Source: an uncultured Bacteroidia bacterium (GTDB lineage Bacteria > Bacteroidota > Bacteroidia > Bacteroidales > UBA932). From it: a stretch of 64,000 nt of DNA. The translations under genes were made by a program, and so were the position numbers. The notes beneath the pieces were generated by a model that saw only the letters and a list, made by a program, of their open reading frames with translations, was not told where the DNA came from and made no database searches. The stretch is taken from positions 105,584-169,583 of the forward strand of contig CACXNA010000016.1 in the NCBI GenBank assembly GCA_902768985.1, given 5' to 3'. Position 1 is the first letter of the stretch; every line of letters starts with the position of its first letter. Below are positions 17,944 to 21,470 of this stretch, one piece after another.

Positions 17944-18668
17944 TGCGCTGCGATGTTGAGGACGGCCTTGCAGAAGGCGTCGAAGTCATTGCGGTCGATC
18001 GCGGCGGCGTTCACGCCCCGGCGGATCTCCCGCTTGCGGTCCGGGAAATGGCGGAGCAGGGCGCTCTTCCCCTTGAAGGGGGAGAACTGCCCGGCCGCGT
18101 CGCGGAAATAATAGTTTGCAAAATAGGAGAAATGGCGGACGACGTCGGGACGGTAATTCTCGTCGTAGTAGCCGATCGTGCTGCCGTTGGCGTTGGTCAC
18201 GGAGTTCTCCAGGCGCTTGAAGATGTGCTTGTAGACCTGCTCGGAGCCCTGGCCGAAGACTTCGTAGAAGCCTTCCGGCAGGTCGCCGTCGGGGCCGACG
18301 CCCACGAAGCGGCGTCCGTCCAGGGTAATGGACGACACCTGCGCCGGGGTGAGCGCCACGGAGACCGGACTGCCCTCCAGTTGCACGAGCGCGCGCTGTG
18401 CGTGCGCGTCAATATTCAAGGGGACGTCCCGGTAGAGATTTCCTTCGATCACGATGTCCCCGGTCTCGAATGCGGGCTGCGTCCAATAGGGATGCCCGTT
18501 GGCGGGGAAGGAGTAGCGTGCCGCCTGCTTGCCGCGGAAGATGACGGAGCGTTCGCCGGCGGTGGCCTGGAAGGTCTCCAACTCAGCCTGGCCCTGCGCA
18601 GAGGCGCTCAGGCAGCCGACTGATAAGGCAAACACACTACTAAGGGTTAATAAGACTGCTTTTTTCAT
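17940..18668 (-). CDS. Secreted protein of unknown function, first gene of the TonB receptor operon
   Basis: 242 aa, starting at MKKAVLLTLSSVFALSVG with a signal peptide cleaved after SASAQ. The upstream in-frame extension to 18863 runs into the rpsO promoter and is rejected. The mature protein opens with a beta-rich part (GERSVIFRGKQAARYSFPAN; DIVIEGNLYRDVPLNID) and ends in a charged helical region. DGRRFVGVG and GFYEVFGQG recall secreted proteins that pair with TonB receptors, but I cannot name a family. Its stop overlaps the receptor start (ATGA). Only 5 bases separate its ATG from the -7 box, suggesting a leaderless mRNA. Confidence 0.85.
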   Translation of the reverse strand: MKKAVLLTLSSVFALSVGCLSASAQGQAELETFQATAGERSVIFRGKQAARYSFPANGHPYWTQPAFETGDIVIEGNLYRDVPLNIDAHAQRALVQLEGSPVSVALTPAQVSSITLDGRRFVGVGPDGDLPEGFYEVFGQGSEQVYKHIFKRLENSVTNANGSTIGYYDENYRPDVVRHFSYFANYYFRDAAGQFSPFKGKSALLRHFPDRKREIRRGVNAAAIDRNDFDAFCKAVLNIAAQ

Positions 18669-18673
18669 TGGAG

Positions 18674-18681
18674 CAAATATA
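18674..18681 (-). promoter_or_regulatory. -7 promoter element of the TonB receptor operon
   Basis: TATATTTG on the minus strand with only five bases between its last base and the ATG at 18668. Transcription would start at or next to the A of the ATG. Confidence 0.6.
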
Positions 18682-18701
18682 ATCATAATAAACCGCAATG
18701 C

Positions 18702-18732
18702 TTTGGATTTTCGAGAAATATGTCTAAATTTG
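18702..18732 (+). promoter_or_regulatory. rpsO promoter (-33/-7)
   Basis: TTTG at 18702-18705, 19 bases, then TAAATTTG at 18725-18732: a perfect match to the Bacteroidota consensus. The rpsO ATG is 60 bases downstream. Confidence 0.85.
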
Positions 18733-18792
18733 CACACTTTTTCCCGCCACGGGAAGAAGGAATGAGTATTAACCTTTAATTTTTTTGCTGAG

Positions 18793-18991
18793 ATGGCTGA
18801 ATATTTGATGCCTGAGAAGAAGCAAGAGATTTTCGCGAAGTACGGGAAGTCCAATAAGGACACAGGACGTGGTCACCCGTCGTTCCCTTCTCCGCCTCGT
18901 CGGTAAGCGCCGTCAGATCCTGGACTACCTCCAGGCCATGGACATTGAGAGATACCGTAAGATCGTCAAGGAGCTCGGTCTCCGTCGATAA
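18793..18991 (+). pseudogene. rpsO: 30S ribosomal protein S15, disrupted by an internal 77-nt deletion
   Basis: The first frame reads [25 protein letters not shown], the normal S15 N terminus, then runs out of register and stops at 18906. The second frame, shifted by one, reads [20 protein letters not shown] through [16 protein letters not shown] and stops at 18991, the normal C terminus. The central segment (SAE.QIALF...HLTEH...NRK in homologues, about 25 residues) is absent. Restoring 77 nt at about 18860-18868 would give a single frame of 91 codons, which fits family length (about 89). S15 binds 16S rRNA early in 30S assembly and the missing part holds 16S contacts. It lies immediately upstream of pnp, the classic rpsO-pnp order. 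It may be real or an assembly/consensus error. Confidence 0.9.
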
Positions 18992-19008
18992 ACGAAATAG
19001 GAAAAGGT

Positions 19009-19042
19009 AGGGATGGTTCCCGCACGGGACCATCCCTTTTTT
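19009..19042 (+). terminator. Intrinsic terminator between rpsO and pnp
   Basis: GGGATGGT ... ACCATCCC with an inner CCC/GGG pair around GCAC, followed by TTTTTT at 19037-19042. pnp begins 38 bases later and lacks an obvious promoter, so pnp may depend on read-through. Confidence 0.85.
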
Positions 19043-19079
19043 GATGAAAGACGTATAAAGACGCAATAGAGAAACAGTA

Positions 19080-21470
19080 ATGAACGTTATCAACAAAAAG
19101 ATCGAACTCGCGGACGGCCGCGTGATCGAGATCGAGACCGGCAAACTGGCCAAGCAGGCCGCCGGCTCCGCCGTTGTCAAGATGGGAGGTACGATGGTCC
19201 TCGCCACCGTGACCTGTGCCGACGAAGTCAAGGAAGGCACCGATTTCATGCCTCTCACCGTGGACTACCGTGAGAAGTATTACTCCGCCGGACGTTTCCC
19301 CGGCGGTTTCCTGAAGCGCGAGAGCAAGCCCTCCGATTACGAGGTGCTCATCGCCCGCCTGGTGGACCGCCCCATCCGCCCGCTGTGGCCGGATGATTTC
19401 CACCTGGAAGTTTTCGTGAATATCAGCCTGATTTCCGCCGAGAAGGACATCCAGCCGGATGCCCTCGCCGGCCTGGCCGCTTCCTGCGCCCTCGCCACCT
19501 CCGACCTGCCTTTCGGCGGCCCGGTGTCCGAGGTCCGCGTGAGCCGCATCAATGGTGAATTCGTCATCAACCCGACCTTCTCCCAGATGAAGGACTCCGA
19601 CCTCGAACTGATGGTCGCCGCCACCGAGGAGAATATCATGATGGTCGAAGGTGAGATGAACGAGGTGACCGAGCACGACATGCTCGAGGCCATCAAGTTC
19701 GCCCACGAAGAGATCAAGAAGCATTGCCGCGTGCAGAAGGAGCTCATGCACGAGCTCGGCACCGACGTCAACAAGCGCGACTATCCCCACGATCCAGAGG
19801 ATGAGGAGCTCAAGAAGGCCGTGCACGACTTCTGCTACGACAAGTGCTACGCCCTCGCCAAGGCTGCCAAGCCCAAGAAGGAGCGTGAGGAAGGCTTCAA
19901 GGCCATCAAGGAGGAGTTCCTCGCCACGATTCCGGAGGAGGAGCTCGAGGAGAAGACCCCGCTCGTGGAGCGTTACTACCACGCCGAGGAGAAGGAAGCC
20001 ATGCGCAACATGATCCTCGACGAGGGCATCCGCCTGGACGGCCGCGTCTGCGACCAGGTCCGTCCGATCTGGTGCGAGGTGGACTACCTCCCCTGCGCCC
20101 ACGGCTCCGCCATCTTCACCCGCGGTGAGACCCAGTCCCTCGCGACCGTCACCCTCGGCACCAAGATGGATATGAAGGAGATGGACGAGGTGCTGATCCA
20201 GGAGGACCAGCAGTTCGTGCTCCACTATAACTTCCCGCCGTTCGCCACCGGCGAGGCCAAGCCGCAGCGCGGCCCCGGCCGTCGCGAGATCGGCCACGGC
20301 AACCTTGCGATGCGCGCCCTCAAGCCGGTCGTGCCCCTCGCTCCCGAGAACCCGTACGCCGTGCGCGTCGTTTCCGATATCCTCGAGTCCAACGGTTCTT
20401 CTTCCATGGCCTCCGTCTGCGGTGGCTGCCTCGCCCTCATGGACGCCGGCGTGAAGATCAAGAAGCCGGTGGCCGGCGTGGCCATGGGCCTCATCACCGA
20501 CGAGGTGCACCCGAACGACCGCTACGCCATCCTGACCGATATCCTCGGTGACGAGGATCACCTCGGCGACATGGACTTTAAGGTCACGGGTACCGCCGAC
20601 GGTATCACCGCCACCCAGATGGATATCAAGGTGGACGGCCTGTCCTACGAGGTCCTCGAGAAAGCCCTCGAGCAGGCTCGCCAGGGCCGTATGCACATCA
20701 TGGGCGAGATGATGAAGACCATCAGCGAGCCGCGTGCGGACTACAAGCCGTTCGTGCCGCGCATCGTCCAGCTCCGCATCGCCGCCGAGTTCATCGGCGC
20801 CGTCATCGGCAAGGGCGGCGAGACCATCCAGAAGATTCAGAAGGAGACCGGTTGCGTCATCAACATCGATGAGGAGCCGATCCCTGGCACCAACCTCACC
20901 GAAGGTGTGGTGGATATCGCATCCGACAACGCCGACAACATGCAGAAGGCCCTCGACTGGATCAAGGGTATCTGCGCTGTCCCCGAGGTCGGCACCGTCT
21001 ATCACGGCAAGGTCGTGAGCATCCTCGAGTTCGGCGCTTTCATCGAGATCCTGCCGGGCAAGGAAGGCCTGCTGCACGTCTCCGAGATCGCGTGGAACAA
21101 GACCGAGAAGGTCGAGGACGTCCTGTCCGTCGGCGACGAGGTCGATGTCAAGCTCCTCGAGATCGACGCCAAGACCGGCAAGATGCGCCTGTCCATGCGC
21201 GCCCTCACCGAGAAGCCGGAAGGCTACAAGGAGCCGGAGCGCCGTCCCCGTGGCGAGCGCGGCGACCGTGGCGACCGTCGTGACGACCGCCGCGGCGGCG
21301 ATCGCCGGGAGGGTGGCCGTGGCCGCGACGAGCGTCGCGGTGGCGACCGTCGCGAAGGAGGCCGTGACAACCGTCACAACGACCGCCCGCGCCACAACAA
21401 CGGTCCTCGCCAGGATGCTCCCGCCCCGTCCTTCGACGACTTCAAGGAGCCTGTCGAGGAGGTGTTCTAG
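19080..21470 (+). CDS. pnp: Polyribonucleotide nucleotidyltransferase (PNPase)
   Basis: 796 aa. It is a phosphorolytic 3'-5' exoribonuclease of mRNA decay. Two RNase PH folds (about 10-140 and 325-480) flank an all-helical linker. A KH domain ([17 protein letters not shown], near 570) and an S1 domain ([20 protein letters not shown], near 640-705) follow. The PNPase-specific [14 protein letters not shown] and [10 protein letters not shown] are present. The last 80 residues are an Arg/Gly/Asp-rich low-complexity tail with GGDRREGGR repeated, ending in an acidic segment ([12 protein letters not shown]). It is preceded by the rpsO terminator; a pair of palindromic arms ends the transcript at 21511-21543. 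Confidence 0.97.

Follow-up and report, generated by a model that had tools for sequence, protein, structure and literature searches.

The gene for ribosomal protein S15 (rpsO), which appears broken in the 64,000-nt stretch of DNA analysed here (the window), very probably owes this state to a misjoin made during genome assembly, and the living bacterium would carry an ordinary, intact rpsO. The genome in question is a 2.35-Mb draft of 28 contigs, 95.18% complete, in which a search for 16S found nothing. It belongs to a Cryptobacteroides-like genus of Bacteroidales from rumen and gut, with relatives including Candidatus Cryptobacteroides. The earlier note on this DNA had left three readings of the broken gene side by side, namely an assembly error, a strain with a second rpsO copy and a real loss of S15. 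The first is now strongly favoured, the second finds no counterpart in the assembly and the third appears unlikely.

In the window, rpsO occupies positions 18793-18991, for a total of 199 nt, and both ends of S15 are present in different frames. As had been read from the letters, the first half ends at 18906: an open reading frame of 37 amino acids (18793-18906) holds the 5′ half of the gene, and another of 40 amino acids with a GTG start (18869-18991) encodes the C-terminal half of S15. Among 110 distinct open rpsO frames fetched from relatives, 104 measure 276 nt including the stop codon (some of the remaining six carry in-frame deletions), and the gene of the window is therefore 77 nt short, exactly the deficit first proposed. 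The missing segment, located by comparison with intact relatives, follows nucleotide 71 of the gene, and its junction has zero microhomology. Accordingly, the PF00312 match is confined to the C-terminal part, positions 40-81 of 81 (43.1 bits, above the family cut-off of 31), the TIGR00952 match covers positions 49-86 of 86 only (1.4e-11; 44.5 bits, below the cut-off of 63.65), and no NCBIfam match was obtained for the first half up to E 0.1. No single frame spans the whole profile above the curated TIGR00952 cut-off, as would characterize a bacterial ribosomal protein S15. The rpsO-pnp order is that of the relatives, in which the S15 match precedes pnp in all 80 named loci (a contig end cuts 7 of them). 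The flanking elements, described from the outset as perfect, are indeed present when read by eye: the element TAAATTTG upstream of rpsO, presumably promoter-like given its agreement with the Bacteroidota promoter consensus, and a terminator-like hairpin downstream (Table 1). An Rfam search of 18300-19300 returned a sole match with E 0.77, whose 17.7 bits fall short of the gathering score, 71.4.

Table 1. Position of rpsO, its junction and its neighbouring elements in the window.
Feature	Start	End	Strand	Basis
Promoter-like TAAATTTG, upstream of rpsO	18725	18732	+	reading by eye
rpsO 5′ part, gene nt 1-71	18793	18863	+	first 24 codons translate as in L158, L188 and L192
Junction, 77 nt of relatives absent	18863	18864	+	comparison with intact relatives
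rpsO 3′ part, other frame (ORF 18869-18991)	18864	18991	+	TIGR00952 and PF00312 matches
Terminator-like hairpin and T run	19010	19042	+	reading by eye
pnp, polyribonucleotide nucleotidyltransferase, intact	19080	21470	+	NF008805, 7.9e-285

The two halves of the gene retain their S15 sequence, and it might be supposed that full S15 is still made, either because the short gene is read with a frameshift or because another rpsO copy lies elsewhere. Such a possibility is hardly credible, as frameshifting could not supply the approximately 25 absent residues, and a further copy did not emerge from the assembly, itself only about 95% complete: a profile search gives one PF00312 match only, and a DNA search with the 5′ half of rpsO gives a single match. 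The nearest surveyed relative, G200, matched by its contig position to RUG13447 (L186), shares 98% identity in pnp and retains the central part of rpsO. In this same relative (L186/L157) the start region of rpsO has been lost in assembly despite a normal-looking profile match. From G200, the 3′ half of the remnant differs by four synonymous codons and by no amino acid, and from the more distant L158, L188 and L192 also by two, three and four amino-acid changes, respectively; the 5′ half translates as in these three. The undecayed state of both halves would fit a functional gene and speak against an old pseudogene; a very recent deletion would look alike. In other words, a real 77-nt deletion in the strain, by which S15 would be lost or non-functional and the 30S subunit would assemble without it, could also have left the halves as they are. 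In addition, the contig that bears the remnant is 169 kb long, the window is free of unread bases, and no second rpsO copy was found, all of which would accord with a real event. E. coli survives the loss of rpsO; on viability without this gene, the partial texts of the literature at hand offered nothing usable.

The relatives provide evidence that bears on this alternative. The survey drew on 400 genomes, each from a different species of the genus, and S15 was present in 348 of them. Affected genomes, picked out by hand at sequence level among suspects, number at least 49 of 348, with a contig end inside rpsO in at least 30 (G130 would raise this count to 31) and an internal break in 19; these figures are lower bounds, since inspection took in only some of the strongly matching genomes, and G200, for example, scored normal and was recognized at inspection alone. 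The 19 internal breaks consist of 16 indels and three cases in which the 5′ side is lost or replaced (G003, G150, G200). In G181, G235, G285 and G349 the whole profile domain still lies on one of two contigs. Among high-quality genomes (at least 90% complete and at most 5% contaminated, with G082 and G315 at the rounded limits of this filter), rpsO is affected in 19 of 146. Judged solely by how strong the match is (a best E weaker than 1e-27), S15 is weak in 33 of 348 genomes and in 11 of the 146 of high quality. The short form of the window, whose presence in sister species would have told against a broken gene, was seen in none of the relatives inspected. Two further observations concern single genomes. 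In G383 (L154), an in-frame TAA stands at codon 36 of an otherwise intact rpsO, where relatives have a tyrosine codon, and G123 has two complete rpsO matches (L152 and L153), equal in score, on two contigs of one bin.

Two genomes, G001 and G295, hold a cut rpsO plus a complete second version on a different contig, which indicates that mixed populations or bins do occur. A minority strain variant could then be envisaged for the window, some cells carrying the deletion and the assembler having picked that version. This explanation would, however, leave unaccounted for the duplications, the lost 5′ sides and the differing junctions found in many species, and it is extremely improbable.

The junctions themselves are informative. 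Measured against intact relatives, the 16 internal indels comprise 14 deletions, the shortest of 9 nt and the longest of 77 nt, and two duplications, one of 14 nt and one of 35 nt. The reading frame is preserved in six of the 16, close to the one third that chance would give, and the mean microhomology of the 14 deletions is 1.0 nt, compared with 0.67 at random positions. Replication slippage, considered as a cause of these indels, was rejected on the basis of such chance-level microhomology. All 16 junctions are different, and 15 of the 16 indels start within nucleotides 71-155 of the gene; the exception is G033, with an indel from nucleotide 164 to 210, outside the conserved stretch. Thus, G033 excepted, junctions differ between genomes and fall in DNA shared between them. 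The overall pattern looks like wrong joins of contig ends, and functional selection or repeat slippage would look different.

Contigs that terminate in rpsO bear a matching signature. Among 13 contig pairs that meet in the gene, 11 overlap exactly, by 45-141 nt, a size typical of k-mers: 99 nt in G042 and G315, 141 nt in G181 and G285, and 45-136 nt in the others. The two pairs without overlap in rpsO are those of G001 and G295. In the window genome, which has 56 contig ends, ten pairs of ends share exactly 99 nt at their boundary (five of these pairs overlap in a joinable manner, the other five have an end in common), and two more pairs have 84 and 30 nt in common, contig 28 being withheld. 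Ten pairs of exactly 99 nt are as expected from a de Bruijn assembly with k = 100. The default maximum k of IDBA-UD is 100, and it is from the 99-nt overlaps that we infer the assembler of the window genome. Moreover, with records assigned by name, internal breaks of rpsO occur in 8 of 30 named loci from one laboratory (RUG, red deer and reindeer genomes) and in none of 50 others (p = 2e-4); contig ends in rpsO are found in 4 of the 30 and 3 of the 50. The RUG, red deer and reindeer papers, in the portions available, describe the assembly of single samples by IDBA-UD and co-assembly by MEGAHIT. In the available portion of the RGIG paper, single samples were assembled with MEGAHIT and IDBA-UD, and binning took in single-sample contigs, of one or both assemblers, as well as MEGAHIT co-assembly contigs. 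The link of the breaks to IDBA-UD accordingly holds by project and not per genome.

These data weigh against a real deletion. The gene is broken in different ways in 18 other genomes, without frame bias and with microhomology at chance level, the breaks are tied to the assemblies of one laboratory, and the 3′ half of the remnant has diverged from G200 by synonymous changes alone. Despite the long contig and the continuous window, a real loss is therefore highly improbable. A misjoin, the preferred explanation, need not be placed at a read-poor spot, as the earlier note had supposed; the evidence suggests otherwise, because the break sits in DNA that is nearly identical between species and because other genomes break likewise at other junctions.

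Why rpsO should be prone to misjoining can be appreciated in part from the length of its identical runs. In the 3160 pairs formed by the 80 named loci, exact shared runs of at least 99 nt number 53 in the 420-nt rpsO region; for pnp, the corresponding numbers are 9 over its initial 420 nt and 25 over 2.1 kb. Similarly, identical runs of at least 70 nt (23 genomes, 253 pairs) are found in rpsO in 9.5% of pairs, whereas no window of the L14 operon exceeds 4.3%; the median identical run is 29 nt in rpsO and 30 nt in the best of those windows. As different species share long identical stretches of it, rpsO acts as an inter-species repeat.

Two ribosomal protein genes, those for S16 and L14, served as controls. 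Counted by hand, S16 is clearly weak (weaker than 1e-20) in 12 of 350 genomes and in 1 of 146 of high quality, and L14 (weaker than 1e-40) in 11 of 283 and 0 of 144, respectively. The difference between S15 (19 of 146) and L14 (0 of 144) in high-quality genomes has a p of 2e-6 in a comparison that is uneven, S15 suspects having been inspected more closely, mild cases included, and weak L14 having been scored by match strength. Of the 12 genomes with weak S16, eight have it at contig ends, in G025 (L304) the gene is interrupted by a stretch of unread bases, and the rest are G193, G304 and G370. Genomes without any match number 117 for L14, 52 for S15 and 50 for S16 among the 400, and 6, 4 and 4, respectively, among the 150 of high quality. 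The surplus of shared runs accounts only in part for the excess of rpsO breaks over L14.

The identity between species extends to synonymous positions. In 104 distinct sequences of the genus (e.g., L158), the synonymous sites of rpsO are unusually conserved in codons 10-51 and 72-91. Specifically, in 22 genomes synonymous positions are identical to an extent of 0.78 in codons 10-51 and 0.81 in codons 72-91, compared with 0.51 in codons 52-71, the limits of the conserved blocks having been set after codon conservation had been viewed; seven operon genes give 0.57-0.69 in the same number of genomes, and their best 42-codon windows 0.59-0.70. Some codons are virtually fixed and differ from those that serve the same residue elsewhere in the gene; for example, 102 of 104 sequences have CGA as their last codon, and the 97 sequences with isoleucine at codon 13 all encode it by ATT. 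An overlapping frame behind the conservation of codons 10-51 was rejected, the most open of the five other frames being open in 19 of 104 sequences. Folded RNA, compared with synonymous shuffles, gives a weak signal, with a mean z of -0.70 in the first block (codons 10-51) and -0.51 in the second (codons 72-91), and a z below -2 in 1 of 25 sequences for each block. A tentative and rather doubtful possibility is that the nearly frozen blocks represent a hitherto unrecognized element acting at the RNA or DNA level within the coding sequence, or else the outcome of repeated recombination of rpsO between species.

A sequence of events leading to the misjoin can be proposed. Related species present in one short-read metagenome would share rpsO stretches of about the k-mer size of the assembler, and the assembly graph would fork inside this shared DNA, a step consistent with the overlapping contig ends of the relatives. 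Paired-end scaffolding or local gap closing may then join the flanking contigs through a wrong overlap or gap. The outcome would differ from genome to genome, being a deletion, a tandem duplication or the loss of the gene start; in the case of the window, the wrong join would have dropped 77 nt and shifted the frame.

Taken at face value, genomes of this kind would suggest the existence of bacteria that do without a protein of early 30S assembly. The survey points instead to a core gene, present in single copy, that can behave as a repeat between species and be cut or misjoined in about one eighth of the high-quality genomes surveyed (19/146). Misjoined rpsO bears on claims of gene loss, on estimates of completeness and on trees built from marker genes.

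Among the literature matches listed, none dealt with internal misjoins of rpsO, which does not prove their absence from print. The closest known case is a technical artefact that affects ribosomal protein genes in metagenome-assembled genomes, with Bacteroidota among the strongest cases, according to the portion of PMC9723686 available. As far as that portion goes, a modest tendency towards absence is noted for rpsO among other genes, genomes assembled from long reads are without that lack, and the artefact is attributed to binning by tetranucleotide frequency. The likeness is that ribosomal protein genes of such genomes are struck by a technical artefact there and here. In contrast to a loss at binning, however, rpsO is retained here with a misjoin or a cut within it, frequently on a long contig, and this implicates assembly. 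The introduction of the same paper, in the part at hand, also mentions that repeats, rRNA genes for example, are prone to misassembly. In both instances, nearly identical DNA found at several places would be wrongly merged by the assembler; misassembly of rRNA genes involves multi-copy genes and long repeats, whereas the extension proposed here concerns a single-copy protein gene shared between species.
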